Of a stretch of 64,000 nt of DNA, positions 14,154 through 29,200 are shown one piece after another (within the stretch, counting starts at the first letter, position 1; every line of letters starts with the position of its first letter). The notes under the pieces were generated by a model, which saw only the letters and a program-made list of their open reading frames with translations, did not search any database and was not told the DNA's origin. Source of the stretch: Acidobacteriaceae bacterium (GTDB lineage Bacteria > Acidobacteriota > Terriglobia > Terriglobales > Acidobacteriaceae); assembly GCA_025462735.1 (NCBI GenBank), contig JAOAPC010000017.1, forward strand, positions 62,001 to 126,000, written 5' to 3'. Both the position numbers and the translations under genes were made by a program.

Positions 14154-15134
14154 TCAACTCTCGATTGCGGCCAGCAGCGCGCGTTTGGTGAATACCCGGA
14201 TGATTTCCCGCCGGTACTCAGGAGTTAGCGCGGAAGTTGTCAACGGTTTGGCGGTCCGGGCCGCGAGTTCGCCCGCGTGGTCAGCCGCACTCTCGTCGAT
14301 CCCACCGTTGTTTAGAAAGATGTTTAAACCTTTGACCAGGACTGGCGCGGGATTCACGGCGGTCAGCGCAATCTGAATATCTTCAATGTGTCCGTTCGAC
14401 CGTTTGACGGCAACTGCTACTCCGGCCAGCGGATAGTCGATCGACCCACGAACGCGCAGCTTGCGGTAAGCTCCGCGATATCCGGATGAAGAATGGGGGA
14501 GAATGACCTTAGAGACCAACTCACCGGGCCGGAGCCGCCGGTAGTCATCGCCTTCGCCAGTGTAAAAATCGCGAAGAGGAATGCGGCGGATTGCGGAAGC
14601 AGCAACAATCTCAACCTCGGCATTCAAGCATAGCAACGCCGGAGGAGTGTCGCCGGAAAATGCCGCCCAACACTTGGTCCCACCGGGCGCCACATGGCAA
14701 AGATTGCCGTCTTTTTTGATACAGAAGCCACACGACTTTCTCCACGCGAGAGATTGGTTGTACCAGAGGCAGCGTGTGTCGAGGCAGATGTTGCCGCCGA
14801 TAGTGCCCATGTTACGGATCAGCGGAGAAGCGACAGTCTTTGCAGCTTCGACGAGAACGGGATATTGCTGGCGGAGGAGCTGAGAATGTTCGATCTCGTG
14901 AAGAGTAGTCAACGCGCCAATCTCGATTCCCTGTTCTGTCTCGTGAATTCCCCGGAGTTCTTTTATCTGACGCAGATCTAGAACGTGCTCTGGTTCGAAG
15001 AGTTTCTGCCGCATTGAAGGCAGCAGGTCGGTGCCGCCGGCAAGGACGCGAATGCTTCCGGCACGCTCGCTGAGATGTTTGAGCGCATCGGGAAGGGTGC
15101 GCGGGCGGGATAATCTGAAATCGGAAAGACTCAT
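14154..15134 (-). CDS. hcrB: 4-hydroxybenzoyl-CoA reductase-like FAD subunit (beta) with [4Fe-4S] loop
   Basis: FAD-binding subunit of a xanthine-oxidase-family molybdenum enzyme, 326 residues. FAD motifs are LAGGTDLLPS near 31-40 and NMGTIGGN near 108-115. The family normally continues directly, but here residues 117-160 form an insertion with cysteines at 117, 122, 135, 138, 146 and 155. From memory, the beta subunit of Thauera 4-hydroxybenzoyl-CoA reductase binds an extra [4Fe-4S] cluster with Cys122, 138, 146 and 155, the same positions, and its length is 324. That loop reverses electron flow for reductive dehydroxylation of 4-hydroxybenzoyl-CoA. It overlaps the molybdenum subunit gene (ATGA type). 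Substrate is inferred from this loop and from the neighbours. Confidence 0.82.
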   Translation of the reverse strand: MSLSDFRLSRPRTLPDALKHLSERAGSIRVLAGGTDLLPSMRQKLFEPEHVLDLRQIKELRGIHETEQGIEIGALTTLHEIEHSQLLRQQYPVLVEAAKTVASPLIRNMGTIGGNICLDTRCLWYNQSLAWRKSCGFCIKKDGNLCHVAPGGTKCWAAFSGDTPPALLCLNAEVEIVAASAIRRIPLRDFYTGEGDDYRRLRPGELVSKVILPHSSSGYRGAYRKLRVRGSIDYPLAGVAVAVKRSNGHIEDIQIALTAVNPAPVLVKGLNIFLNNGGIDESAADHAGELAARTAKPLTTSALTPEYRREIIRVFTKRALLAAIES

Positions 15135-17761
15135 TGTTCACCACTGGCGGGCGAGGGAGCCCGCCCCACACTACCCTCGTGCCGCTCCGGGCCTTTGCCT
15201 TTGAACCAAAGTGCGCCCCCATGCTCACGGAATGTTGTCGGCGAAGTTGGATCGACTCCCTCGGTCAGATTAAGCGGCTTGGCATTCTTCTTTGCACGCA
15301 ATGCCGCGAGCACGCGCTCTGGTGTAAACGGCGATTCGTGCAGGCGAATTCCAACTGCGTCGTAAATTGCATTCGCGATCGCGGGGATGGTGGCTGCGAG
15401 CGCGCCTTCGCTGCATTCCTTCGCACCGAACGGGCCTTCAGGATCGATGCTCTCCACGATAATCGCTTCTACCTCAGGAGATTCTACTGAGGAAGGGCTG
15501 CGGTATTCGAGCAAACCGGGATTCATGAGGAGACCGTCTTTCCAGATCATTTCTTCAGTGAGGGCTTGGCCCATACCCATCCAGACTGAACCGATTACCT
15601 GGCCTTCGACAGCAACCGGATTCAGTGCGCGCCCGCAATCGTGTGCTGCCCAAACTTTGTGGACAGTGACTTCCCCGGTGTCTTCGTCAACGCTTACTTC
15701 CGCGACCTGAGCAGAGTACGAATAAGCTGGTGAGGGCCCAACGCCTCCACCTTTGTGTTTGCCGCCACGAGCCTCGGGCGGCGGAGCGTAAGATCCAGTG
15801 CCGGTGAGCGCGCCGTGAAAATCGATGGCGGCAACCACAGCTTCCTCAAAGGACATAGAAGTTTTCGGCGCGTCGTCTTCTTTGCGTTTCTGCTGCAACG
15901 AGCCGCGAAGGATTTGACCTTCGACCCGGCCAGAGACGGTTGGTGAACTCGAGTCAACATCCCCACCCTCTCGCAAAGAACGCGAGAAGGATGGGGCACC
16001 CTCGGCAGGACGGGCGAGGGCGTCCGTCCCCACATGGCCTGTGCTGATCCCATTACTTCTGCGCACTGCGTCATCACGGAAGACGAGATCTACTAGATCG
16101 CAGTTCATCTTCTTGGAGGCCGCAGCGGCGATTTGTTTTTTCACTGCTTCGGCTGCGCGTAACGTTGCGTTGCCGGCCATAAAGGTCACGCGGCTCGAGT
16201 AAGAACCGATGTCGATGGGAGTTAGGTCGGTGTCGGCCGCAACGACTTTTACCCGCCCAAGGGAGCAACCGAGAACTTCGGCGGCTATCTGCGCGGTCAT
16301 GGTGTCGGAGCCCTGGCCGATCTCAGATGCACCTGTGTAAACCACAACGCCGCCATCGCGATCGATCTTGATGTTAACGGTCGAGTGCGGCATGTCAGAG
16401 CGAATGATCGAGTTTGCGGCGCCGCTGACGTAGTGACTACATGCGACGCCTAGGCCGCGTCCCCTGGGCAGTTTGCCTTTGCGTTCTTTCCATCGCGAGC
16501 GATCAACGACTTTGTCGATGCACTCTGGAAGGCCGTAGCTCTGAACGCGAAGTCCATTCACTGTAATGCAGGGGGCCTGTAAAAGATTGCGGCGTCGAAT
16601 TTCGGCGGAATCGATATTCAGTTTGGCGGCAAGCTCATCAAGTTGCGACTCGAACGCAAAGCGCACGTTAACCGTTCCATGACCACGCATCGCGCCACAG
16701 GCCGGCTTGTTAGTGAGAACGCGGAAGCCATCGTATTGAATAGTCGGAATGTCGTAGAGAGCGCCGAGCAGAGCGCCGGAATAAAGAATCGTGACCACGC
16801 CGTAAGAACAATAGCCACCGCCATCCTGCACCACGCGGGCTTTAACGGCGGTGATGCGGCCGTCGTTCTTGACGCCAGTTTTTAAATCGATAATGGTGCG
16901 GGGGCGTCCGCGATGCGCCCAGAAAACTTCTTCCCGAGTGTAAGTGATTTTGACGGGGCGCTGAGCCTTACGGGCGGCCACAGCTGAAATAATTTCAAGG
17001 GGAATGACTTCGCTCTTACCGCCGAAGCCACCGCCGACCAAAGGCTTGATGACGCGAATCTGCGACATCGGCATTTCGAGCACGAGCGAAAGCTTGTGTT
17101 GCAGGTAATACGGCACCTGCGTAGAGGACCAGACTGTTAGGCGCCCCGGCTTTCCGGTTTGCGAATCGATGTCGAAGGTCGCGAGCGTCGAATGGGGTTC
17201 CATGGCGGCGTGAGTGACTTCGTTAGCAATGAAGCGGGCTTCTTCGATGTGATCTGCTTCGGCAAGGCCTTTGTCGGGATCTCCGAAGACGTGGTGATAA
17301 TCCTTTTCAACGTTGTGCGGTTTGTTGTCATGAATAAGGTCGCGCTCGGCCTTCATCGACTCTTCAGGATCGAAGTAGGCCGGAAGGAGCTCGTATTCAA
17401 CATTAATCAGCTCGAGCGCCCGTTCGGCGGTGGCTTCGTCTTCGGCGGCCACACAGGCCACGTTGTCGCCAACGTAGCGGACTTTGTCCACCGCAAGAGC
17501 GTGCTCGTCATGGCCGACGGGAAGAATGCCATATGGGTTGGGGGCGTCTGATCCAACGACGACCGCAACTACTCCGTCCAACTTCTCGGCGCGGCTGGCG
17601 TCAATTCGCTTGATGCGGGCGTGCGGATGCGGCGAATGCAGAATCTTGCCGGTCAGCATTCCGGGCAACGAGAGATCGTCGGTGTACTTGCCGGCACCGG
17701 TGGTTTTGCCAGCTGCGTCGACCATGGCTATAGGCTTACCGATGATGGAGAAGGTGGTCAT
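15131..17761 (-). CDS. hcrA: Molybdenum-cofactor subunit of the HcrABC-like reductase, with palindrome-derived insertions
   Basis: Large subunit of the xanthine-oxidase family, 876 residues against about 770 for HcrA. GGGFGGKSE is at residues 243-251 in the molybdopterin region. GPFGAKECSEGAL near residue 800 carries the catalytic Glu. The extra length is mainly at about residues 565-620, where two palindromic repeats (15961-16036) encode HVGTDALARPAEG and APSFSRSLREGG. A third repeat encodes the C-terminal tail SVGRAPSPASGEQ. The core on both sides is intact (KMNCDLVDLVFRDD before, SMSFEEAVVAAIDFHG after), so the enzyme probably tolerates the inserts. It overlaps the 129-residue gene upstream and hcrB downstream by four bases each. 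A different aromatic or purine substrate cannot be excluded. Confidence 0.82.
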   Translation of the reverse strand: MTTFSIIGKPIAMVDAAGKTTGAGKYTDDLSLPGMLTGKILHSPHPHARIKRIDASRAEKLDGVVAVVVGSDAPNPYGILPVGHDEHALAVDKVRYVGDNVACVAAEDEATAERALELINVEYELLPAYFDPEESMKAERDLIHDNKPHNVEKDYHHVFGDPDKGLAEADHIEEARFIANEVTHAAMEPHSTLATFDIDSQTGKPGRLTVWSSTQVPYYLQHKLSLVLEMPMSQIRVIKPLVGGGFGGKSEVIPLEIISAVAARKAQRPVKITYTREEVFWAHRGRPRTIIDLKTGVKNDGRITAVKARVVQDGGGYCSYGVVTILYSGALLGALYDIPTIQYDGFRVLTNKPACGAMRGHGTVNVRFAFESQLDELAAKLNIDSAEIRRRNLLQAPCITVNGLRVQSYGLPECIDKVVDRSRWKERKGKLPRGRGLGVACSHYVSGAANSIIRSDMPHSTVNIKIDRDGGVVVYTGASEIGQGSDTMTAQIAAEVLGCSLGRVKVVAADTDLTPIDIGSYSSRVTFMAGNATLRAAEAVKKQIAAAASKKMNCDLVDLVFRDDAVRRSNGISTGHVGTDALARPAEGAPSFSRSLREGGDVDSSSPTVSGRVEGQILRGSLQQKRKEDDAPKTSMSFEEAVVAAIDFHGALTGTGSYAPPPEARGGKHKGGGVGPSPAYSYSAQVAEVSVDEDTGEVTVHKVWAAHDCGRALNPVAVEGQVIGSVWMGMGQALTEEMIWKDGLLMNPGLLEYRSPSSVESPEVEAIIVESIDPEGPFGAKECSEGALAATIPAIANAIYDAVGIRLHESPFTPERVLAALRAKKNAKPLNLTEGVDPTSPTTFREHGGALWFKGKGPERHEGSVGRAPSPASGEQ
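15138..15176. repeat. Palindromic element (GGGCGAGGG family) forming the hcrA-like C-terminus
   Basis: GGCGGGCGAGGGAGCCCGCC followed by CCACACTA. The element lies in coding sequence and supplies the last residues of the molybdenum subunit. Confidence 0.7.
15961..16036. repeat. Two adjacent palindromic elements inside the hcrA-like gene
   Basis: 15961-16003 is CCCACCCTCTCGC - AAAGAA - CGCGAGAAGGATGGGGCACCC, also found at 57636-57672 and 61003-61040. 16008-16036 is GGACGGGCGAGGGCGTCCGTCC plus CCACATGG, the GGGCGAGGG family. Both are read through in frame. Confidence 0.8.
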
Positions 17762-18147
17762 AGTTGTTCGCCCGCTACGAATTCAATTGTTTGGGCGAGG
17801 ATCGAACACGTACCACCGTAGGAAGCGCTCACGTCCAAAATCTGTAAGTGCTGTTCTCCTACTCTTTCCATCAGCTTGTGCTCCCACGGCTTTGGTTCGT
17901 GACCGGAATCCAGCTCGTAAAGATCAGCTATGTCCGCTAGTGTAATTTCGCCACTGTCCCGCGTCGACACCTCCAGAATGATGTTGCCTGCTCTGAATCC
18001 GCCCGCTTTCAACATCACCACCCCAGTAAGGACAGCGGTGGTCCGCTCTTTCTCCAAAGTACACAGATACACGTGAACGACTTTCGTATCGTCAGGGATG
18101 CGCAGTCCCTCGAAAAATCCATCGTGAAATTCGGAATAGGTTTTCAT
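17758..18147 (-). CDS. Protein of unknown function between reductase subunits
   Basis: I do not recognise this 129-residue protein. It has no signal peptide, membrane segment or cysteine pattern (one Cys in the N-terminal half and one in YGGTCSIL). It looks like a compact alpha/beta protein: VHVYLCTLEKERTTAVLTGVVML, then NIILEVSTRDSGEITLADIADLYEL. Its stop overlaps the hcrA-like start as ATGA and it follows the [2Fe-2S] subunit gene by 114 bases, so it is made together with the enzyme. A role in assembly or cofactor handling of the molybdenum enzyme is only a guess from position. It is not a MobA- or XdhC-type protein by any motif I can see. Confidence 0.7.
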   Translation of the reverse strand: MKTYSEFHDGFFEGLRIPDDTKVVHVYLCTLEKERTTAVLTGVVMLKAGGFRAGNIILEVSTRDSGEITLADIADLYELDSGHEPKPWEHKLMERVGEQHLQILDVSASYGGTCSILAQTIEFVAGEQL

Positions 18148-18200
18148 CCAGACCGTGTCTTTTTCATCTCCGTTTCCAAAACAGCAGGTTCCTCGACTGT

Positions 18201-18245
18201 GAAGATCGTTCGCAAGCGAACGATCTTCTTCGCTCGGAATGACAG
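18201..18245. repeat. Hairpin of the CATCCTGAGC-type repeat family
   Basis: Perfect 13-bp arms GAAGATCGTTCGC (18201-18213) and GCGAACGATCTTC (18216-18228) with a 2-base loop, followed by TTCGCTCGGAATGACAG. Lies between the [2Fe-2S] subunit gene and the unknown gene, and may attenuate transcription within the operon. Confidence 0.65.
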
Positions 18246-18261
18246 AAATTGTAGAAGGTAT

Positions 18262-18753
18262 TCACGTTCGGGCCGCCATTCCCTTCTGCTCAGCTTGGAT
18301 TGCGGCTTTGATAGCTTCGTACATCTGGCTGTAGCCGGTGCAGCGGCATAGGTTGCTGCTCAGCGCGTCGCGAATTTCGGGATCTGTCGGATTAGGATTT
18401 GTCGCGAGAAGGTGTTTGACGGTCATCATGAATCCGGGAGTGCAGAAGCCGCACTGCGCGCCTCCCCAATCGCCGTAGGCTTTCTGAATTGCAGCCAAGG
18501 CTCCGTGTTCGCTGACGCCTTCCACGGTGGTGATCTCCTGGCCTTCGCAACTCGCCGCCAGCATGGTGCAGGAGAGCATGGGCGTGCCATCAACCAGAAC
18601 AGCACATGCGCCGCACGAGGAATCGTCGCAGCCGCGCTTGGAGCCGGTAAGCTGCAGGTCCAGGCGTAGAGCGTCAAGCAGCAGTCTGTTCGGTTCGATC
18701 GCCAGCTCATGCGAGCGGCCATTGACGCGGAGTTCGAAGAGTTGTTTTTTCAT
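18262..18753 (-). CDS. hcrC: [2Fe-2S] subunit of the HcrABC-like reductase
   Basis: Iron-sulfur subunit of 163 residues, the length of HcrC/CoxS proteins. The plant-type cluster is held by C42, C47, C50 and C62 ([16 protein letters not shown]). The second cluster of the helical domain is held by C101, C104, C136 and C138 ([14 protein letters not shown]). It passes electrons between the FAD and molybdenum subunits. Transcribed first of the three subunit genes, in the order C - unknown - A - B. The start ATG at 18753 follows a spacer full of TTAGCT words and a clear ribosome site is hard to see. Confidence 0.9.
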
Positions 18754-18766
18754 GAAAACAGCTATT

Positions 18767-18840
18767 AGCTGTTAGCTCCTAGCTTTTAGCTTAAACCGTC
18801 CTGGGCGAGAGCTTGCCCTGAGCGCAGTCGAAGGGACGCC
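18767..18840. repeat. TTAGCT low-complexity tract plus GAGCTTGCCCTGAGC hairpin
   Basis: Tandem-like AGCTATTAGCTGTTAGCTCCTAG words, then GGGCGAGAGCTTGCCC and CTGAGCGCAGTCGAAGGGACG, related to the CATCCTGAGC-type repeats. A similar TTAGC tract precedes the BoxB-like gene at 22747-22800. Confidence 0.5.
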
Positions 18841-18873
18841 CCCCCTACAAGCTTTTCTTAGTTCATACCGTTC

Positions 18874-19782
18874 TTAATAGCCAAAATCGGCTTGTGCTGC
18901 ATACGCATGTTGCTTTACGCCGAGCGCTTCAACGCGATCAGCTCCGAGTTGATCCGAATACGCCTCGTGATCTGGAACGCCGTACACCCAGCGATCCAGC
19001 CAGGCGTCGCTCCCTGTTTTCGTTTTGGTTTGCTCATGGTATTCGCGGAAGAAGTCGTTATCGCGATTGTAGTATCCCTGCACCGGCGAAGGATGCGCGC
19101 CATAGGGGCATTCGACGACGGCATTCACCAGGAACCCTGGAATCACGGTGCGATTGGCATCACTGGCGATGACCTCGGGGTCGACGATCTCTTCAGCCAC
19201 GACAATCACCCGCTTGGCGGCACGCACTCCTTCGAGCATCACTCCGAAATTTCCCCAGCAGTGCGCGTTGCCTTCTGAATCCGCACGCTGCACATGAACG
19301 ATGGTGACGTCTGGATTCAACGCGCGGACCGCCCACAACGACTCTGTGGGGGCGAATGGCGAAAAGATTTGATAGAAGAAGTGGTTGCCTTTTGCTGTGT
19401 CGCTGCCCAGGGCAGTTTTAGTGGGTAGAAACGGTACGCCCATGGCTCCCGCCTGCAAGGCCAAAGCGATAGTGAAGTTGGTCATGTTGAAGACCTTCAT
19501 GCCGTCCTGCTCGACGGCGCGCCGGAAATTGTAAGCCGATCCCATCATGACGTTGCCTACCCAGGCTGCAATAACTTGCTCGACGCATCCAGCCCCGATA
19601 AGTTGATCGAAGAGAATGTCGGAGATGGGCCCAATCAGAGTGAGATTCCGCTTTTTCTGGCGAATGATTTCGTGACCGGCGGCGAATGGAATCATCTGCT
19701 CCATCTGCAAACCCATGGCGACTGAGCAGCCGTCGGGAACCAAATCGGCGATCGCTTCGCGCATGGAGAGCAGCTTGCTCAT
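18874..19782 (-). CDS. CoA-transferase family I subunit A (GctA/IpdA-like)
   Basis: Alpha half of a glutaconate-CoA-transferase-type enzyme, 302 residues. It begins LLSMREAIADLVPDGCSVAMG, the strand-turn typical of the family, then LIGPISDILFDQLIGAGCVEQVIAAWVGN and the late domain VTIVHVQRADSEGNAHCWG. Members act as CoA transferases (GctAB), as ring-opening hydrolases in steroid degradation (IpdAB), or as a decarboxylase (AibAB). The partner subunit is at 20735-21559, separated by a hydratase gene. An A - hydratase - B split order is unusual, since the two subunits are normally adjacent. The role in aromatic acyl-CoA breakdown is inferred from the operon. Confidence 0.85.
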   Translation of the reverse strand: MSKLLSMREAIADLVPDGCSVAMGLQMEQMIPFAAGHEIIRQKKRNLTLIGPISDILFDQLIGAGCVEQVIAAWVGNVMMGSAYNFRRAVEQDGMKVFNMTNFTIALALQAGAMGVPFLPTKTALGSDTAKGNHFFYQIFSPFAPTESLWAVRALNPDVTIVHVQRADSEGNAHCWGNFGVMLEGVRAAKRVIVVAEEIVDPEVIASDANRTVIPGFLVNAVVECPYGAHPSPVQGYYNRDNDFFREYHEQTKTKTGSDAWLDRWVYGVPDHEAYSDQLGADRVEALGVKQHAYAAQADFGY

Positions 19783-19814
19783 GGTGTTGTTACCAATCTC
19801 TAACCGGATTCATC

Positions 19815-19876
19815 CCCCGGCGGCTAAAGCCGAATCGGATGATCCCTCGATACGGCACGGCTGTAAGCCGTGCCCT
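19815..19876. repeat. GGCTAAAGCC / GGCACGGCTGAAGCCGTGCC repeat
   Basis: GGCGGCTAAAGCCG, then ACGGCACGGCTGTAAGCCGTGCCC with 9-10 bp arms, in the spacer between two operon genes. Copies with the same two hairpins at similar distance lie at 33968-34080 and 48428-48480. Confidence 0.75.
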
Positions 19877-19910
19877 TTCAAACCTGGCCGGGCGCAATCC
19901 ATGCAAGGGT

Positions 19911-20696
19911 TCACCGCCCCTTCCACTGCGGCTTGCGCTTCTCCATAAATGCTCTGATGCCTTCCCTCGCATCTTCGGTCTTCATGAGTTCATCGAGGTA
20001 AATCTTCTCGGCGCGGGCGAGACCTTTGTCGAAATGGATGGAATCCCAGGCGTAAATTGCTTTTTTCGTGAGCTCTAGGGAAGAGGGGCTGAGTGCGGAA
20101 AGCTTCTCAATAGTCTCATCGACAGCCGTCGCAAGCTGATTCGTAGCGAGTGCGCTGGTCGCCAGTCCGATTCCAGCCGCTTCTGAGCCGGTGATGGTGC
20201 GACCTGTGAGAATGAGATCCGACGCGCGCTTTTGCCCGATGAGGGCGCTCAGTGCGGTTGCCGCGACCGGCGGAAAACAGCCGAGTTGGATTTCAGGAAA
20301 TCCCCATTGCGCGTCTTCGGTTGTGTAAACCAGATCGCAGACCATAGCTATCTCGGCGCCTCCGCCGAGACAATGCCCCTCGACTTCGGCTATGGTCACC
20401 TTGTTGATCGCAATCAGGCTGCGGATTACGTGATGAAATTTCTCCAGCATGGAGGCGACTTTGTCAGGCGTGTGCGCGGCGACGTCAACGCCCGCGGAAA
20501 AGCAGTTCCCTTCTCCGCGAAATACGACGATTGAGATTTCCGGCTGGGCTTCGATTTCGGCCAGAGCGGTAGCCATGTCCTCCATCAGCGGGATGTCGAT
20601 CACATTGAGCGGAGCATGGCGCAGGGTGATGTGCGCGACGTGGCCTCGAAGTTCAAGCGCCAGACGATCGAATTTGCTAACGGTTTGAGTCGCCAT
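19911..20696 (-). CDS. Enoyl-CoA hydratase/isomerase family protein (dienoyl-CoA hydratase-like)
   Basis: Crotonase-fold protein of 261 residues. I start it at the ATG at 20696 (MATQTVSKFD). Upstream in-frame codons are repeat sequence and overlap the preceding gene. Oxyanion-hole motifs are FSAGVDVAAH and EGHCLGGGAEIAM. The position of the usual second catalytic Glu is held by GFPEIQLGCFPP. HAPLNVIDIPLMEDM resembles cyclohexa-1,5-diene-1-carbonyl-CoA hydratases of benzoyl-CoA breakdown. That is a resemblance, not proof. It sits between the two CoA-transferase subunit genes, so it probably acts directly before or after that enzyme. Confidence 0.82.
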   Translation of the reverse strand: MATQTVSKFDRLALELRGHVAHITLRHAPLNVIDIPLMEDMATALAEIEAQPEISIVVFRGEGNCFSAGVDVAAHTPDKVASMLEKFHHVIRSLIAINKVTIAEVEGHCLGGGAEIAMVCDLVYTTEDAQWGFPEIQLGCFPPVAATALSALIGQKRASDLILTGRTITGSEAAGIGLATSALATNQLATAVDETIEKLSALSPSSLELTKKAIYAWDSIHFDKGLARAEKIYLDELMKTEDAREGIRAFMEKRKPQWKGR

Positions 20697-20703
20697 ATGC
20701 TCT

Positions 20704-20733
20704 GGTCGGACAAGAATGTCCGACCCACACGTG
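20704..20733. repeat. Palindromic repeat GGTCGGACAAGAATGTCCGACC + CACACGTG
   Basis: 9-bp arms TCGGACA/TGTCCGA with flanks, plus the conserved CACACGTG tail. A near-identical copy is at 35171-35200. Fills nearly the whole 38-base spacer before the hydratase start. Confidence 0.75.
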
Positions 20734-20734
20734 T

Positions 20735-21559
20735 TTAGCTGGTCCAGAAACCTTCTTTGTCGTATTCGCGAATTGCTTGCAATTCCTCCGGAGACGGCTC
20801 CGGCGTTTGCGGCACGGTTTTCCCGAGCTGTAATTTCCACCCTGTATTTGAAAGCACATCTTCAAGTTCAATGCCCGGATGCACCGAGTCCGCATACGCC
20901 TCACCATCGTCGCCAAAGCGAAGAACGGTTTTAGTAGTGATCACGGCTGAAGGGCCGCCGCGCGGCAGGCCGACTTTCTTTCGCCAGCCTTGACCATCCC
21001 CGAATCCGGGGCTGGTCATGAATGAAACTCGTTCAGGCAAACGCTCTTTTTTGTGGTCGAGCAACACGACAAAACGGTGGGCGAGTGAGGCGATATCGCA
21101 CGCGCCACCGGAACCGGGCAAGCGAATAGTGCCGGCTCCGTTTACTTGGGTCGAGTTCAAATTGCCGAAGCGATCGACTTCGGCTGCGCCCAAAAAGCCG
21201 AGATCGACGCGTCCGGATTGCAGCAGGCCCATCACGCTGAGCATGTCCAGACATTGGGTTGCGCCCAGAATGTTCGGCGGATCAGCCATGGTGTAGATCA
21301 ACTCAGGAGCAGCTGTCGAACGGATCACGCCGTTCTCGAAGAGTCCAATTGCACTCGGGGCATGCGTTTTCTTAGCGACTACGAATGCGATCAAGGGTAG
21401 TCGCATGCCGACGAATACGAGGTCGCCATCTTTAATGTCGCGGGCGGCGGCACAGACCATGAGTTCAGAAAGTGTGTATGTAGCATTTGTCGAGCCCGGC
21501 TCGACCGAACGGGCGAGGGCGCCCGTTCCCACACGGTCGGTAGTGGTCTCAGTCATCAT
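20735..21559 (-). CDS. CoA-transferase family I subunit B (GctB/IpdB-like), with repeat-derived N-terminus
   Basis: Beta half of the glutaconate-CoA-transferase-type enzyme, 274 residues. LFENGVIR near residue 75 places a Glu where GctB has its catalytic Glu that forms the CoA thioester, so it does not look like the AibB decarboxylase, where Cys replaces it. GSGGACDIASLAHR and FMTSPGFGDG are also family features. Residues 8-22 (DRVGTGALARSVEPG) come from a palindromic element at 21507-21534 inserted before the conserved TYTLSELMVCAAARDI. It starts 11 bases after the BoxB-like gene. Confidence 0.85.
   Translation of the reverse strand: MMTETTTDRVGTGALARSVEPGSTNATYTLSELMVCAAARDIKDGDLVFVGMRLPLIAFVVAKKTHAPSAIGLFENGVIRSTAAPELIYTMADPPNILGATQCLDMLSVMGLLQSGRVDLGFLGAAEVDRFGNLNSTQVNGAGTIRLPGSGGACDIASLAHRFVVLLDHKKERLPERVSFMTSPGFGDGQGWRKKVGLPRGGPSAVITTKTVLRFGDDGEAYADSVHPGIELEDVLSNTGWKLQLGKTVPQTPEPSPEELQAIREYDKEGFWTS
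21507..21534. repeat. Palindromic element inside the CoA-transferase B N-terminus
   Basis: GAACGGGCGAGGGCGCCCGTTC plus CCACAC. Member of the GGGCGAGGG family, in frame, with arms adjusted at the outer pair (GAAC/GTTC). Confidence 0.75.
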
Positions 21560-21570
21560 GTCGGTAGAAG

Positions 21571-22746
21571 TTAAAGATTGATCGCCGATTTGCGAGGCTC
21601 TGCGATTGTGTCAAAAGGATCGCGCGCGCCTTCTTTAGGTACGATCCATTTCTTCTCGTTGGCAATGATTTCAAGCAAGAGTTTCTTGTCGTCGGCGCTG
21701 GGAAGAAATTCGGGCAGCTGCTGGTCGTATTCTTTGTCTTCCAGCGGCGCGCCGTTCTGAGGATGAAATTTCTGGTTCGCCCAGCGGCCAATCATACGAT
21801 TGAATTTGATGTCAGGCGCATAAAGTTTGGGTTCTCCCGGCTTTAGAACAGTGTTGAAGCGTTCGATCAACCCGGCAACCTCATCGCGATATAACTGACG
21901 GTTGTAGTCATTCAAATCGTCGAGATTCGCCTCTTTGTCGTTCTTCGGTTCGTCGTAGCGGCCCTTAATCCCCCAAACGTACGCCCAGTGCGCGGACGAA
22001 GAGTGATCGGTGCCGAAGAGGTCGTAAGAGCTCGATAGCCACTTATTTAGATATTTCTGAATTAGCCATGCGGGGACGACTCCGGCCTGCACGATGCGGC
22101 GTAGGCCGTCATTCCCGGTGCCCATATGAAATGCCTCTTCACGCAGCATGTAAGACATGGAGCGGCCGAGTGGGGCAAAGGCTGAATACTTGAGCATCTG
22201 CAATTGGAACTTGCCATCGCGATCCACGAAATCGGTGTAGGTGAAAAAGTCCATCCAGTTGTCGACATCGACGTTGAACGCGCCCAGCAAGCGCTTATTT
22301 TCAAATGCTCGGCGTTCAAGCATCTTTTGCGCCTCGACTTTTCCGGAGTAGCCGAAGTGGTCGACCAGAAGCGCGCACATCTGCCACCCGTGGCGCATCT
22401 CCTCGATCATGACGCGAGTGATGGCGCGGCGGTCCCAATCGGTAGGGGCGGTTTCAAACAAGTGCCTCTGCTGCTCACAGCTCGCGAACTCGGTATCGCC
22501 CTGGTAGACGATCATGTTCATCAGCGCGTCGCGCATTTGTTGGGTAGGAATCTGGCGAAGGTTCTCCCACTTGCGGCGTCCTTTGTAATGACCGAACTGA
22601 ATTTCTTCGGTTTCGATGGCGCCGAAAAGGGTGTCAAATTTAAAGCTGGCGATCTCGTCGCGATTGACGCCGATTTCTTTGCGCCATTCGTCGAACAGGC
22701 CGATCCAATCGCTGAACGTTCCGATTTTGGCTACTTTGCCAGGCAT
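21571..22746 (-). CDS. BoxB/PaaA-type diiron oxygenase (ring epoxidase) of the PF05138 family
   Basis: Ferritin-like carboxylate diiron protein of 391 residues. The ATG at 22746 has AGAGG five bases upstream. A Met seven codons earlier lies in a repeat tract. Two E-x-x-H metal motifs are visible, IEEMRHGWQM near residue 115 and REEAFHMGTG near 205, with an extra Glu in FASCEQQRH. The stretch LERRAFENKRLLGAFN..DWMDFF..TDFVDRDGKFQL strongly recalls BoxB, the oxygenase that epoxidises benzoyl-CoA at C2-C3, although BoxB is about 470 residues and this is shorter. PaaA-like activity is the alternative. It needs a reductase (BoxA-type), and none is in the window. Confidence 0.8.
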   Translation of the reverse strand: MPGKVAKIGTFSDWIGLFDEWRKEIGVNRDEIASFKFDTLFGAIETEEIQFGHYKGRRKWENLRQIPTQQMRDALMNMIVYQGDTEFASCEQQRHLFETAPTDWDRRAITRVMIEEMRHGWQMCALLVDHFGYSGKVEAQKMLERRAFENKRLLGAFNVDVDNWMDFFTYTDFVDRDGKFQLQMLKYSAFAPLGRSMSYMLREEAFHMGTGNDGLRRIVQAGVVPAWLIQKYLNKWLSSSYDLFGTDHSSSAHWAYVWGIKGRYDEPKNDKEANLDDLNDYNRQLYRDEVAGLIERFNTVLKPGEPKLYAPDIKFNRMIGRWANQKFHPQNGAPLEDKEYDQQLPEFLPSADDKKLLLEIIANEKKWIVPKEGARDPFDTIAEPRKSAINL

Positions 22747-22834
22747 AGAAACCTCTGCTTTTAGCAATTAGCTCTTAGCACTTAGCTTGACAGTGTGGTG
22801 GCCAAATGCCAATTGCTAAATGCCAAGTGCTTTC
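22747..22834. repeat. TTAGC / CCAAxTGC low-complexity spacer
   Basis: AGCAATTAGCTCTTAGCACTTAGCTT then CCAAATGCCAATTGCTAAATGCCAAGTGC, short imperfect tandem words with no coding character. Confidence 0.5.
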
Positions 22835-23656
22835 TTACTTGGCTTTAAATTCTGCCGGACGCTTTTCGACGTACGCGGCCAACCCTTCTTTTGCGTCTTC
22901 GCTTTGGAAGAGCAATTGTTGATTCTCGCGCTCGACCGCGAGTGCAGACTCCATGGGAATTTCCCAGCCGGTTTGCACGGCGCGCTTGATCCTGCCCACG
23001 GCTTTTGCGGCTTTGTTGGGAGGGCAGAACTGGCGCGCGTACTCCATGATGTTTTCCATAAAGCCTTCGCGCTCAAAGATGTCATTGATAATGCCGAGCT
23101 CGAGCGCCTCTTCGAAGGAGAATGTGTTTCCGGTCACCATCAGCTCGATGGCTTTGCTCTTGCCGACCAGCCGCGACAGACGTTGTGTTCCGCCGGTGCC
23201 GGGCAGTACGCCGAGATTCACTTCCGGCAGACCAATCTTTCCTGCGTCCTTGCGGGCGATGCGAATATCGGCCGCCATGGCAATTTCGAGGCCTCCGCCA
23301 ACGCAGTGGCCGTTTATTGCGGCAATCACCAGCTTCGGAGTGTGCTCTAACCGCAGCAGCATTTCATTAGCGTGCAGGCAGAAGTAATACTTGAATGTGG
23401 GATCAACGCTGGCGAGCATTTTGATGTTCGCGCCGGCGGAGAAAAACTTGTCGCCGGCCCCGGTGAGCAGAATGACATGCGCGTCGTTGTCCATGCGCGC
23501 TTTCAGAATTGCTTCATCGAGTTGGCGGTTCATTTCGTAGGTATAGGTGTTGGCTGGCGGATCATTCATTTCAATGACGGCCACCCCGCCATCCACGCGG
23601 TAGTTGACGAGTTGTTTTGCCGATTGCTCAGTTGCCGGTTGAAGTGTGGTCGCCAT
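22835..23656 (-). CDS. Enoyl-CoA hydratase/isomerase family protein
   Basis: Canonical crotonase-family enzyme of 273 residues. FSAGANIKML and NGHCVGGGLEIAM form the oxyanion hole, the latter carrying the first catalytic Glu position, and IGLPEVNLGVLPGTGGTQRL carries the second Glu and the CoA-binding loop. It ends in PAEFKAK, typical of full-length family members. It hydrates or isomerises an enoyl-CoA. Within this operon it could act on the epoxidised or dearomatised ring, or in the following beta-oxidation. It is 149 bases after the TetR gene and 88 before the oxygenase gene. Confidence 0.88.
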   Translation of the reverse strand: MATTLQPATEQSAKQLVNYRVDGGVAVIEMNDPPANTYTYEMNRQLDEAILKARMDNDAHVILLTGAGDKFFSAGANIKMLASVDPTFKYYFCLHANEMLLRLEHTPKLVIAAINGHCVGGGLEIAMAADIRIARKDAGKIGLPEVNLGVLPGTGGTQRLSRLVGKSKAIELMVTGNTFSFEEALELGIINDIFEREGFMENIMEYARQFCPPNKAAKAVGRIKRAVQTGWEIPMESALAVERENQQLLFQSEDAKEGLAAYVEKRPAEFKAK

Positions 23657-23718
23657 AGCATTCTCCTTGAGTAGCGTGCCGTCCCTCGGCGGGACTCGCT
23701 CCTATGGTGCTTCTGTTC

Positions 23719-23770
23719 CCGGCACTGCCGTGCCGGGCTTTCAAATTTCGTCGCTTCGCGACTGAGGCAC
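23719..23770. repeat. CCCGGCACTGCCGTGCCGGG hairpin with GTCGCTTCGCGAC
   Basis: A GGCAC/GTGCC-type palindrome followed by CTTTC and a second small hairpin. The same pair of elements, with CCCGGCATTGCCATGCCGGG and GTGCCTTCGGCAC, is at 31712-31757. Confidence 0.65.
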
Positions 23771-23805
23771 TTGCATCCGATTCTCATCGGCCGCACTTGC
23801 CATCG

Positions 23806-24438
23806 TCATCGCGCGGAGATCCCTCTAAAGAAAATGTTTCCCATTTCGCGCGACAACTGCTCTGCCCCGCCGTCAAGGCGTGGGTTATACCAGGTGTAAA
23901 TCCAGTTCATCATGCCGAACAGCGAAAGCACCGCCGTCCGACTGTCAAATTCTAGTCCCTTTTCCTTTTTGTAACGGTCCAGCAGGTCACGGCAAATCCG
24001 ATAGTACTCACGTTTGATGAGCGCGATCTTGCGGCCGTATTCGCCGTCGAGCACTTCATCCTCGTGCGAAAGTACCTTCATGGCTTGCTGGTGTTCCAAA
24101 AAATATTCCAGGTGATTCTGAATGAAAGTGCGAACGCCGTGCCCTGGATCGTTCGTTTCGGAAAGGCGGGCGCGAAGACGGGACAGAACTGTAGAAAACG
24201 TGTGCTGCTGGATGAGGTAAAGCAAGCGTTCCTTGGAGCCGAAATAATGGTACATCCCAGCCAATGACATGCCGGTTGCGCGGGAAAGGTCGCGCATCGA
24301 CGCACCCTCGTAGCCTTTATCACAAAAAACTTCAGTGGCATGTTCGAGGATTTTGCCCAGCTTGCGATCGAAGCGCGGCTCGGCCTGCTGACGGCGCACG
24401 GCTCGATGGGGACGGGGTCTAGTAGATGCCGATGCCAT
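23806..24438 (-). CDS. TetR-family transcriptional regulator
   Basis: Repressor-like protein of 210 residues and first gene of the catabolic block. The N-terminal helix-turn-helix covers about residues 25-75: ILEHATEVFCDKGYEGASMRDLSRATGMSLAGMYHYFGSKERLL in order, a textbook TetR domain. The helical C-terminal ligand domain begins near residue 80. TetR proteins in acyl-CoA catabolic operons (PaaR, FadR type) usually bind a CoA thioester that releases DNA. The palindrome at 24443-24456 sits right in front of the start codon, so autoregulation and control of the downstream genes are likely. The inducer is unknown. Confidence 0.9.
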   Translation of the reverse strand: MASASTRPRPHRAVRRQQAEPRFDRKLGKILEHATEVFCDKGYEGASMRDLSRATGMSLAGMYHYFGSKERLLYLIQQHTFSTVLSRLRARLSETNDPGHGVRTFIQNHLEYFLEHQQAMKVLSHEDEVLDGEYGRKIALIKREYYRICRDLLDRYKKEKGLEFDSRTAVLSLFGMMNWIYTWYNPRLDGGAEQLSREMGNIFFRGISAR

Positions 24439-24501: not shown

Positions 24502-25722
24502 TTAGTTGCGTATGTCTGACATTAACTTGTCGACTTCAGCTTTGAGATCGGACGTGAGCGGAAGGAGAGGCAATCGTGGCGGGCCGCCGTAATAGCCGTT
24601 GAGCTCGAGAGCGTATTTCAGACCAGGAATTCCGAGTTCGCCGGCGACCCGAATCGAGCTTGCGGAAATGCGCTCTTGCTTCAGGCGGGCAAGATCGGCA
24701 TCGCCTTCCTTCCAAGCCGCATAGATTTCATAACAGGCGGTGGGCGCGGGAGCGGCAAAGGCGAGAACTGCTCCGACTGCTCCGGCCTCAAGCGCGGGAA
24801 GCAGTCTTTGCGCCGTGCCTGCGAGGACTTGGAATCCGGCTTCCTTCTGGCGGGTTTTGAGGCCGCCAATGATGCTGATGGAGGAGGAAGCGGACGGCGA
24901 TGACGGGCGAGACGCCCGTCGCTCCGCTTCAGGCCGCGATTCCGTGATCTTCATTACGAAGCCTTGCTCCGCAGGACGGGCGAGGGCGACAGTCCCCACA
25001 TGGCTAGTCTTCCCCACATGGCTCGCCTCCCCCACGTGAGCCATCTTCTGCTCGCCAGAAAGTGCCGCCACCGTAACAAGGTCACCGCTTCCGATTGGTG
25101 ACTCCGATTTCGCGGACTTCAACATGCGTGGGGTTACCGCGGCAAAGGTCTCGGTTACGGTGGCGCTGCGCTTGATGGTTCGTGTGCCTTCGACCATGCG
25201 GCGGATTTTTTCAGCATCGCCGCCGGATTCCTTGATGCCGATAATGTTGGGGTGATTGGCGAGCTCGATGACCAGCTCAGGCGGAATGTCGTATCCGGTG
25301 AACACTGGGACGCTATAGACGAGGACGGGAATGGGCGAATGATCGGCCACCGAGCGGTAGAAGGCGAGAATGTTTGCCGGCTTCAACTGCGGCCGGTAGA
25401 AATGAGGCGTACGGACAAGAGCGGCATCGTATCCGAGCTCGGCGGCATACTCGGTCAGGCGCAGAGTTTCGATAGCCGATTCTGCAGCGGTGCCAGCAAT
25501 CAGAACTTTGTGGGGCGCGCAGGATTCACGCGTCGTTTTGAGAACTTCACGACGTTCGTCGTCCGACAGCATGATGGCTTCGCCGGTTGAGCCGAGGACA
25601 ACAATTCCTGCAATTGGGGTCTTCGAATAGCGTTCGACATTGTGCTCGAGCTTTTTGAGATACACCCGCCCGTCGGGATAGAACGGCGTAGTGATTGGCG
25701 GAAAGATGCCGTGGAGGAGCAT
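24502..25722 (-). CDS. DapA-family aldolase, 4-hydroxy-2-oxoglutarate aldolase-like, with a ~115-residue insertion
   Basis: Class I TIM-barrel aldolase of 406 residues, where the family has about 300. GSTGE (44-48), Y136 in PVLVYSVP and the Schiff-base K164 in IIGIKESGGD are present. The pieces VYSVPVFTGYD, NIIGIKESGGDAEKI, FQVLAGTAQ and GIPGLKYALELNGYYGGPPR resemble human HOGA1 more than DapA, suggesting cleavage of 4-hydroxy-2-oxoglutarate or a relative. Between VEGTR (181) and FQVLAG (297), which are adjacent in HOGA1, lie about 115 low-complexity residues encoded largely by palindromic repeats (HVGEASHVGKTSHVGTVALARPAEQG in two steps, ERRASRPS). The frame is open throughout. Whether the protein folds normally needs experiment. 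Confidence 0.82.
   Translation of the reverse strand: MLLHGIFPPITTPFYPDGRVYLKKLEHNVERYSKTPIAGIVVLGSTGEAIMLSDDERREVLKTTRESCAPHKVLIAGTAAESAIETLRLTEYAAELGYDAALVRTPHFYRPQLKPANILAFYRSVADHSPIPVLVYSVPVFTGYDIPPELVIELANHPNIIGIKESGGDAEKIRRMVEGTRTIKRSATVTETFAAVTPRMLKSAKSESPIGSGDLVTVAALSGEQKMAHVGEASHVGKTSHVGTVALARPAEQGFVMKITESRPEAERRASRPSSPSASSSISIIGGLKTRQKEAGFQVLAGTAQRLLPALEAGAVGAVLAFAAPAPTACYEIYAAWKEGDADLARLKQERISASSIRVAGELGIPGLKYALELNGYYGGPPRLPLLPLTSDLKAEVDKLMSDIRN
24902..25040. repeat. Cluster of palindromic elements inside the aldolase gene
   Basis: 24902-24924 is GACGGGCGAGACGCCCGTC. 24974-25003 is GGACGGGCGAGGGCGACAGTCC plus CCACATGG, with two further copies of only the tail (TTCCCCACATGG, TCCCCCACGTG) directly after it, as if the element had been partly duplicated. 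Confidence 0.75.
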
Positions 25723-26224: not shown

Positions 26225-29200
26225 CTACGTCCTTCTAGGTGATGGCGCTTTAGAGATGGCCTCGCGCTCCGCGTGCAACTGCTGCAGCGCTTTTACGTTT
26301 ACTTCACCGCGCTGTAGAGCTGCGATTCCTTCGGCGGCGGCGCGGGCGGCGGCGAGTGTCGTGATCGTGGGAATGCGGGCAGTCACGGCGGCGCGCCGGA
26401 TTGCCTTTTCGTCAAAGAATGGATCAGGGCCTTGCGGAGTATTCACGATGAGCTGAATGCGGTCGCCTTTGATCAGATCGACAACGTTAGGACGGCCTTC
26501 TTTCACTTTGTAAACCCGATCGCACGCCATGCCAGCTCCTTCGATAACGTCGGCAGTGCCGGCGGTGGCGACCAGCTTGAATCCCATGTCAACAAATTTG
26601 CGGGCGACTTCGGCGACGTGCGGTTTGTCATGATCGGTGACGCTGACGAAGACGCACCCTTGGGTCGGCAGCTTTTGTCCGGCGGCGATTTGCGCTTTAG
26701 CAAAGGCCTCGCCGAAGTTGTCCGCCACTCCCATGACTTCTCCGGTGGATTTCATCTCGGGTCCAAGGACGGTATCGACGCCGGGAAATTTATTCCACGG
26801 GAAGACTGGAGACTTTACGTAATAACAGGAACCGGTGTCGAGATCTTTTTGCTGGTCGATGTACTCGGGCAGAAATTCGCGCAGCTTGCGGCCAGTCATC
26901 AAGCGCGCGGCGATCTTGGCCATGGGGACGCCGGTAGCTTTGGAAACGTATGGCACAGTGCGGGAGGCGCGAGGGTTGACTTCGAGGACGTAAACTTTGC
27001 CGCCGGTTCCGTTGGCTCCAGTTGGGCGGACGAGGGTGTCCGCCCCTACGTGGTCTTCTGTTGGACGGGCGCGAACGCCCGTCGCTCCATGGTCTGTGTC
27101 TGTTTCGGCGTATCCGCTGCGCGGGATGGCGAACTGCACGTTCATCAGGCCGACGACTTTCAACGCGCGCGCCAGTTTGAACGTGTATTCGCGCATGCGG
27201 GCGAGCAGGTGCTCCGGAATATCAACCGCCGGAAGTACGCACGAGGAATCGCCGGAGTGAATTCCTGCTTCCTCGATGTGCTGCATAATTCCGCCGATGA
27301 CCACGTCTTCGCCGTCGGAGAGCGCGTCCACGTCAACTTCGATTGCGTCTTCGAGGAAGTGGTCGATCAGTACGGGTCGGTCTTGCGAATATTCGACCGC
27401 TTCCTTCATGTAGCGGACGACGGTTTCTTCGTCGTAGGCGATGACCATGGCACGCCCGCCGAGCACATAAGAAGGACGCACGAGAACTGGATAGCCGATT
27501 TTGGCGGCACCGGCGACGGCTTCTTCAAGGGACGCTGCCATTGCCCCAGGTGCTTGCGGAATTTCGAGTTCATCGAGCAGCTTACCGAAACGCTTGCGGT
27601 CTTCGGCGAGATCAATGTACTCAGGCGACGTACCGATAATCTTTACGCCCGACTTCTTAAGCGGGAGCGCGAGGTTCAGCGGAGTCTGTCCGCCGAACTG
27701 GACAATGACTCCAACCTCGGCACCTGCCGCGGATTCGTGCTCGTAAATTGCCCATACATCTTCGAAGGTGAGCGGCTCGAAGTAGAGGCGGTCGCTGGTG
27801 TCGTAGTCGGTCGAAACCGTCTCCGGGTTGCAGTTGATCATGATGGTCTCGTAGCCGTCTTCACGGAGGGCGAACGACGCATGGCAGCAGCAGTAATCGA
27901 ACTCAATTCCCTGCCCTATACGGTTGGGACCGCTGCCCAGGATGATGACCTTTTTCTTGTCAGTCGGCGCGGCTTCGTCTTCTTCTTCGTAGGTCGAATA
28001 CAGATACGGGGTGTAGCTTTCAAATTCGGCAGCGCAAGTATCAACGCGCTTATAAACAGGTTGTACTTTGTGCTTCTTGCGCAGATGGCGGATTTTTTCC
28101 TGATCACCTTTGCCGCTCAAGCGCCAAGTTCCAGCAAGTCGACCGTCGGAAAATCCCATGCGCTTGGCCTCGCGCAAGACTTCGGTCGGGACAGATTCGA
28201 TCGGGTGCTTTTCGACCTCGAGCTGCATGTCATTAATTTCTTTGAGCTGGTAGAGGAACCAGGGATCGATGCCGGTCATCTTCGCAACCTGCTTGACGGT
28301 GTGCCCCTGGCGAATGGCGTAGCGAATGTACGAAAGACGCTCGGGATGCGGCGTCACCAGGCGCTGAGTGAGGATCTTAGGCTCGATTTTCTCCCCACCG
28401 ATGCGCTTGCCGGTGTCGAGGGCGCGAACGCCTTTCATCAGCGCTTCCTTAAAAGTGCGACCGATGGCCATGACCTCGCCGACGGATTTCATCTGCGGAC
28501 CAAGGCTCTCATCAGCGCCGGGAAATTTTTCGAACTGCCATTTGGGAATTTTGACGACTACGTAGTCGAGGGTTGGCTCGAAACAGGCAGGAGTTTTACG
28601 CGTAATGTCGTTGGGAATTTCGTCGAGCGTGTATCCGACAGCGAGCTTGGCGGCAATCTTTGCGATAGGGAATCCTGTGGCTTTCGAGGCTAATGCCGAC
28701 GAACGTGACACGCGCGGGTTCATTTCGATCACGACCATACGTCCGGTGTGGGGATGTACACCGAATTGAATATTCGATCCGCCAGTTTCGACTCCGATTT
28801 CTCGGATTACGGCAATGGCCGCATCGCGCATAGCCTGGTATTCGCGGTCGGAAAGAGTCTGGGCCGGGGCGACGGTAATGGAGTCGCCGGTGTGCACGCC
28901 CATAGGATCGAAGTTTTCGATTGAGCAGATGATGATGACGTTGTCTTTCAAGTCACGCATCACCTCGAGCTCATACTCTTTCCAGCCGAGGACGGATTCT
29001 TCGATCAGCGCTTCGTGGACGGGAGAGAAATCGAGACCGCGGGCCAGGACTTCTAGCAGTTCTTCGCGGTTGTAGGCCATGCCTCCACCGGAACCGCCGA
29101 GAGTAAAGGACGGTCGCACAATCACCGGGAAGCCGATTTTCCCCGCGAATTCAAGGCCATCTTTTAAATTATTGACCAGCGCGGATTTTGGAACGTCGAG

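Follow-up and report, generated by a model that had tools for sequence, protein, structure and literature searches.

A recurring acidobacterial operon joins an HcrABC-type reductase to a BoxB-like diiron oxygenase from outside the BoxB clade

In the Box pathway (BoxABC of Azoarcus evansii and Burkholderia), a BoxB-type diiron oxygenase and crotonases act on a CoA-bound substrate. BoxC itself is described as two crotonase domains in passages of PMC4498308. HcrABC of Thauera aromatica (PDB ID: 1RM6), of a type known from the anaerobic degradation of hydroxybenzoate, is a three-subunit enzyme whose FAD subunit carries a [4Fe-4S] insert. Hybrid dehydroxylation and box chemistry is already proposed for Aromatoleum aromaticum EbN1, for which passages of PMC9765128 describe conversion of 3-(4-hydroxyphenyl)propanoate to benzoyl-CoA, with a presumptive reductive dehydroxylation in the presence or absence of oxygen, and the box pathway in air. 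Passages of other reports list Hcr, BoxB and BoxC in SAR324 bins (PMC4782131) and, for Aromatoleum/Azoarcus (PMC10803450) as well as for UBA5794 actinobacteria (PMC12008989), Box proteins alongside benzoyl-CoA reductase. The locus described here would resemble that of A. aromaticum in combining, in one organism, presumptive dehydroxylation with subsequent aerobic degradation of benzoyl-CoA; unlike that case, the genes form one operon and the oxygenase lies outside the BoxB clade. Compared with the Box pathway, this operon also has two changed pocket residues in its oxygenase, no BoxA match and no two-domain BoxC, and HcrABC is joined to it. In the titles and abstract openings of the mainly open-access literature on Hcr, boxB and Acidobacteria, no account of the operon or of this oxygenase lineage was found. 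Within the scope of these searches, both the BoxC-lacking lineage and its operons are new.

The operon lies in the window (the whole 64,000-nucleotide stretch that was analysed) of a 4.36-Mb genome that is 97% complete and not closed. The near GTDB relatives of this genome are Acidobacteriota, with peat, bog or groundwater named for several. As the original prediction stated, the genes it named form a single co-directional block: ten ORFs occupy 14154-24438 of the minus strand in one direction, spaced by 11-149 bases or, at orf129/HcrA (stop over start) and HcrA/HcrB, overlapping by 4 nt. From 24438 to 14154, the order is:

23806..24438, minus strand, TetR-family regulator (Pfam TetR_N and TetR_C_24)
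22835..23656, minus strand, ECH1, a crotonase (ECH_1; top match to the BoxC model in the genome)
21571..22746, minus strand, OXY, a BoxB-like diiron oxygenase of 391 aa from its ATG (TIGR03225, 235.8 bits; iron ligands, tree, AlphaFold model)
20735..21559, minus strand, GctB-like CoA-transferase subunit (1POI_B, 119.6 bits; Glu at the catalytic position)
19911..20696, minus strand, ECH2, a dienoyl-CoA-hydratase-like crotonase (TIGR03189, 163 bits)
18874..19782, minus strand, GctA-like CoA-transferase subunit (1POI_A, 152.4 bits)
18262..18753, minus strand, HcrC, [2Fe-2S] subunit (TIGR03193, 179.8 bits)
17758..18147, minus strand, orf129, an orphan ORF without a Pfam or NCBIfam family
15131..17761, minus strand, HcrA, molybdenum subunit (TIGR03194, 1RM6_A, tree)
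14154..15134, minus strand, HcrB, FAD subunit with the [4Fe-4S] insert (1RM6_B, aligned cysteines)

The 391-residue length predicted for the oxygenase follows from an ATG at 22746, the listed 398-aa ORF beginning at an upstream TTG; ECH2 starts at about 20696 instead of at 20840. The 129-residue orf129, which the original prediction did not mention, sits between HcrC and HcrA. No match to it was found in 110 related loci, and matches occur in 5 of 150 family genomes, its own included. It was rejected as a subunit, since its relatives (28-52%) are rare and their surroundings are unrelated in the two loci inspected.

Membership of HcrABC in the 4-hydroxybenzoyl-CoA reductase family is well supported by sequence comparison. 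HcrA passes the model for the alpha subunit of this enzyme (TIGR03194, 1032.7 bits, cut-off 994.55) and, among solved chains, matches 1RM6_A from Thauera at 809.4 bits, with the second chain at 283.2 bits. HcrB has the Hcr model as its top match (321.3 bits, below the cut-off of 404.55) and 1RM6_B as its nearest solved chain (222.2 bits; second, 128.8 bits). HcrC is matched best by TIGR03193 at 179.8 bits, which is below the cut-off of 257.8 and 0.1 bit above glyceraldehyde dehydrogenase gamma (179.7 bits). The four Cys residues of the [4Fe-4S] insert in 1RM6_B align with Cys residues of HcrB, which we take to be ligands of the extra cluster. A scan showed this Cys motif in all five of the operon relatives covered and, among 20 other loci, in 6; it was not found at loci L199 and L200, though HcrA there scores over the cut-off. 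A tree was built from 32 HcrA-type proteins, leaving out L061 (without a single ORF) and L168. In it, the proteins from the operons form the sister group of Thauera HcrA with support of 100/99; the Thauera protein is the sole characterised row and sits on a long branch. The predicted placement of the molybdenum enzyme within the HcrA/B clade is thus borne out by model score, tree and retained cysteines. Three subunits, the insert and the tree position are shared with Thauera HcrABC, from which the locus differs in having an oxygenase in the operon and two subunits below their model cut-offs. Among the plasmid matches listed for HcrA (15 of 1172 records), none exceeds 37% identity, and those that carry annotation are other molybdenum enzymes.

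The top model for OXY is that of BoxB (TIGR03225), but at 235.8 bits the score is about half of the cut-off (499.1). In a 64-row tree, from which nine near-copies were removed beforehand and in which 14 of the 38 BoxB-type genomes are represented, the lineage of OXY (100/100), BoxB (100/100) and PaaA (99/94) stand apart from one another. The tree leaves the position of ten distant acidobacterial rows between OXY and BoxB unresolved; these rows are called OXY-type by sequence identity (50-56% to OXY, 35-40% to one annotated BoxB), a placement that goes beyond what the tree shows. The structure of OXY as modelled by AlphaFold (mean pLDDT 86.8) superimposes on BoxB with TMq values of up to 0.82 and on PaaA with values of at most 0.50. 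A PaaA identity was rejected on this comparison, on the separate clade and on a PaaA model score of 38.2 bits against a cut-off of 280. The predicted BoxB/PaaA-type oxygenase is therefore retained as a protein with a BoxB-related fold and iron site, one that falls outside both clades and fails the BoxB model.

Passages of PMC5489048 name the iron ligands of BoxB and seven residues of its substrate shell; the numbering used here is that of A. evansii, verified against the alignment. The paper itself names Phe203 at one point, Phe206 at another. All six iron ligands are kept in 28 of 28 rows of the OXY lineage. OXY keeps five of the seven shell residues (Gln116, Thr119, Ser123, Phe193 and Phe203 in BoxB numbering), with Phe203 kept in 26 of the 28 rows and replaced by Leu in two. 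At the remaining positions, Phe206 is replaced by Tyr in 37 of the 38 own-lineage and distant OXY rows and Thr210 by Val or Ile in all 38, while the 18 BoxB rows uniformly have Phe and Thr; the corresponding residues of OXY itself are Tyr177 and Val181. These two changes, together with failure of the BoxB model, mean that the substrate of OXY may differ from that of BoxB. Judging from alignment and predicted structure, OXY probably epoxidises the ring of a benzoyl-CoA-like thioester, in a pocket slightly unlike that of BoxB. No reductase partner for OXY was found in the searches. A NuoF-like flavoprotein encoded near distant OXY genes (L112, L116 and L120) could be the reductase that serves those proteins instead of BoxA. 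As the reductase of the present operon it was rejected, with close copies in four distant OXY genomes only, three of them on the contig of OXY; in the window genome the best copy is 36% identical. A third BoxB-like clade was also observed (L180-L188; nine genomes, 27-34% identity to OXY), with BcrB over its cut-off in four of these genomes.

A search of the rest of the genome for boxA, boxC and an aryl-CoA ligase, proposed with the original prediction as a check, returned no match for BoxA and scores below the cut-off for BoxC and benzoate-CoA ligase. The BoxC search covered 16 genomes: all four BoxB genomes have BoxC over the cut-off, against 0 of the 12 OXY genomes, 10 of which are at least 90% complete. 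The absence of BoxA says little, because BoxA is below the cut-off in 16 of 16 Acidobacteriota genomes, including the four with BoxB and BoxC; in Acidobacteriota of the latter kind another reductase may take its place. In the window genome, the top match to the BoxC model is ECH1 (80.3 bits over positions 42-229, cut-off 712.3), which best resembles the first crotonase domain of one BoxC (41% over 140 aa). ECH1 is the top BoxC match in all five OXY genomes of its own family, and an ECH1-like gene is so in G153, G201, G071, G148 and G074 among the other seven, G192 not being included; in G131, where OXY lies in a Bcr operon, the top match is weak (47.5 bits) and away from OXY. ECH2 scores 163 bits with TIGR03189, its third-best NCBIfam match (cut-off 292.5, passed in 1 of 22 genomes searched), and is the top match to this model in each of the five own-family OXY genomes, that of the window included; with BoxC it scores 41.6 bits. 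Since BoxC has two crotonase domains, two separate crotonases could replace it.

Both Gct-like subunits have glutaconate CoA-transferase (1POI) as their nearest solved relative, and their substrate may differ from that of this enzyme. The GctA-like subunit matches 1POI_A at 152.4 bits (second chain 78.1 bits, IpdA 66.4 bits) and the GctB-like subunit matches 1POI_B at 119.6 bits (second 54.3 bits), with IpdB absent among the 20 matches listed for the latter. The GctB-like subunit has a conserved Glu at what we take to be the Gct catalytic position, present in 26 of 26 translations including its own, some of which possibly come from the same genomes. From sequence, the pair would be a CoA-transferase, perhaps in place of a ligase; CoA transfer to benzoate is suggested for Geobacter bemidjiensis in passages of PMC2996986. 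No benzoate-CoA ligase is over the cut-off in the window genome (best 224.3 bits, cut-off 375.25) or in the relatives G084 and G210; one is in G073 and G121. The Gct pair cannot be the only entry route, because the G084 operon lacks it as well. Of the GctAB/IpdAB-like pair originally proposed, then, the pair itself is present and is nearer to Gct than to IpdAB.

The neighbourhood comparison used the best 80 of 271 related loci in GTDB genomes. Many of these 80 repeat the gene order, which argues against a chance arrangement, and the TetR cluster is present in 63, some of the remainder being short. Fifty loci extend for 2,600 bases or more before OXY and for 8,000 or more after it and were kept; 30 were too short. 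Hcr genes are present in 34 of the 50 and in the flank of none of the other 16. The Gct pair occurs in 14 of the 34 loci with Hcr and in 0 of the 16 without, and an aldehyde dehydrogenase gene (ALDH) between ECH1 and OXY in at least 21 of 34 and at least 1 of 16, respectively. From these distributions, Hcr, Gct and ALDH look like a feeder onto a core of OXY and crotonases. An amidohydrolase (PF04909) lies downstream of the operon in at least 40 of the 50 loci; this figure and the one for ALDH are minima, as ORFs that are split or fused were missed. The operon ALDH is absent from the operon of the window genome, where the best other copy is 57% identical; G084 and G210 have a copy like it in addition to the operon ALDH. 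The amidohydrolase was rejected as part of the operon: it lies on another contig of the window genome (contig 13, 81%) and beside DapA in G023, where OXY has no match. In a genome of the same family that has no OXY match (L164), CarB, DapA and the amidohydrolase are adjacent where relatives have the OXY operon, a spot that is possibly an empty site of the operon. ALDH, an ECH1-like gene and the amidohydrolase also cluster in G153, G201 and G169 with OXY not adjoining; two of these genomes hold OXY, and one BoxB, elsewhere. Because these genes cluster apart from OXY and Hcr, ECH1 may serve another pathway. At L161-L163, ALDH, an ECH1-like gene, a crotonase and the amidohydrolase are clustered with neither OXY nor Hcr adjoining, along with a quinone-oxidoreductase-like gene (examined in L161).

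Across 247 genomes of the phylum, hand-sorted by score, 14 have an OXY-type, 38 a BoxB-type and 9 a third-type gene, and no genome has both OXY-type and BoxB-type genes. BcrB of class I benzoyl-CoA reductase is over the cut-off in 21 of the 247: in 6 of the 14 OXY genomes and 15 of the 233 others (1.2 expected with OXY, p 0.00035) or, counted by family, in 5 of 9 (p 0.015), both p values ignoring kinship. BoxB and BcrB occur together in 3 genomes, with 3.2 expected. HcrA is likewise present in 6 of the 14 OXY genomes, five of the six from one lineage. In one assembled genome (G131; L118, 9323-16444), BcrC, BcrB, BcrA, BcrD, a GNAT gene, a hemerythrin gene and OXY are co-directional, and the gaps separating the last three genes are 10 and 47 bases; BcrB, BcrC and BcrD are over their cut-offs and BcrA is just below (562.4 against 578 bits). 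OXY thus ends a BcrCBAD operon in this relative; the window genome differs from such loci in having no match to the BcrB model. The lack of a benzoyl-CoA reductase noted originally accordingly holds, as regards the class I enzyme, for the window genome, and not for the relatives that pair OXY with BcrB. In G148 (L177), the order of Bcr, GNAT and hemerythrin genes is repeated (GNAT and BcrC by resemblance), and OXY is elsewhere.

Taken as sequence and structure prediction, these observations favour, with a probability of about 50%, an operon that degrades 4-hydroxybenzoate-type compounds, in the form of CoA thioesters, when some oxygen is present. GctAB would attach CoA by transfer, or side-chain oxidation would deliver the thioester. 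HcrABC, as a member of its family, would remove the para-hydroxyl group to give benzoyl-CoA, and OXY, given its predicted fold and aligned metal site, would add one oxygen atom to the ring to form an epoxide. ECH1 and ECH2, instead of a two-domain BoxC, would add water and open the ring. The resulting semialdehyde would be oxidised by the aldehyde dehydrogenase found in the operon of most Hcr-bearing relatives and not in that of this genome. As a guess, the electron donor of OXY could be a ferredoxin shared with Hcr. The hybrid route of the original prediction survives in its pairing of an Hcr-type reductase with a BoxB-type oxygenase in one recurring operon; the oxygenase is not of the BoxB clade, and ring opening by an IpdAB-like pair is unlikely.

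The strongest competitor, which we regard as possible though improbable, is that the substrate of OXY is a different aryl-CoA or a partly reduced ring, such as a hydroxylated benzoyl-CoA or, in relatives, the dienoyl-CoA from benzoyl-CoA reductase, with Hcr as a side branch. The Tyr and Val/Ile substitutions beside the ring position of BoxB, the tree position of OXY, the 16 of 50 loci without Hcr in the flank, the enrichment of BcrB in OXY genomes and the dienoyl-hydratase-like character of ECH2 would all fit such a substrate; the unchanged Gln116, which binds the substrate, and a largely intact shell speak for benzoyl-CoA, and BcrB is without a match in the window genome. An ordinary box pathway, with BoxA, BoxC and the ligase elsewhere or lost from an incomplete assembly, is compatible with the shared fold and iron site and with a genome that is not closed. 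It is an unlikely account, because BoxC stays below the cut-off in all 12 OXY genomes searched, even in the ten of at least 90% completeness, and because OXY-type and BoxB-type genes occupy separate genomes.

Slightly less credible still is hydrolytic ring opening by the GctAB/IpdAB-like pair, as originally suggested. Membership of the same superfamily and the presence of IpdA among the matches permit it; the Gct chains are nearer, IpdB is not listed, the catalytic-position Glu is invariant and the pair was not found in 20 of the 34 Hcr loci, so that an IpdAB hydrolase was set aside as the main reading. The molybdenum enzyme could also be a hydroxylase of another aryl compound, as the sub-cut-off scores of HcrB and HcrC and the 51% identity of HcrA to its Thauera counterpart over 563 residues might allow, but with HcrA over its cut-off and sister to the Thauera protein and the [4Fe-4S] insert kept, this is the least probable of the alternatives.

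A broader reading, proposed here tentatively and with less confidence than the preferred one, would make OXY the founder of a second benzoyl-CoA epoxidation system, with separate crotonases to open the ring and without BoxA or BoxC. Acidobacteria would plug this system onto otherwise anaerobic machinery, namely HcrABC (the lineage of the window) or BcrCBAD and a hemerythrin-like protein (a distant relative), and could thereby switch the attack on benzoyl-CoA from a reductive to an oxygen-dependent one or back. Acidobacteria are abundant in soil and mostly uncultured. From its gene content, the operon is a plausible route to lignin-type aromatics at low oxygen for such bacteria. If the preferred reading is correct, hydroxybenzoates would be fed into an oxygen-thrifty epoxide route, lignin-derived aromatics would be usable where oxygen fluctuates and epoxide opening would be possible without BoxC; the operon supplies clear genes for testing.

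Finally, a dispersed 52-nt repeat was observed in the window, with copies 63-79% alike at 16001-16052, 21500-21551, 24967-25018 and 27056-27107, which fall within the reading frames of HcrA, GctB, a DapA-like gene and CarB, respectively. In the first and third copies (HcrA and the DapA-like gene), the repeat adds a peptide like HVGTDALARPAE, and a related peptide precedes ECH2 at 20700-20723.
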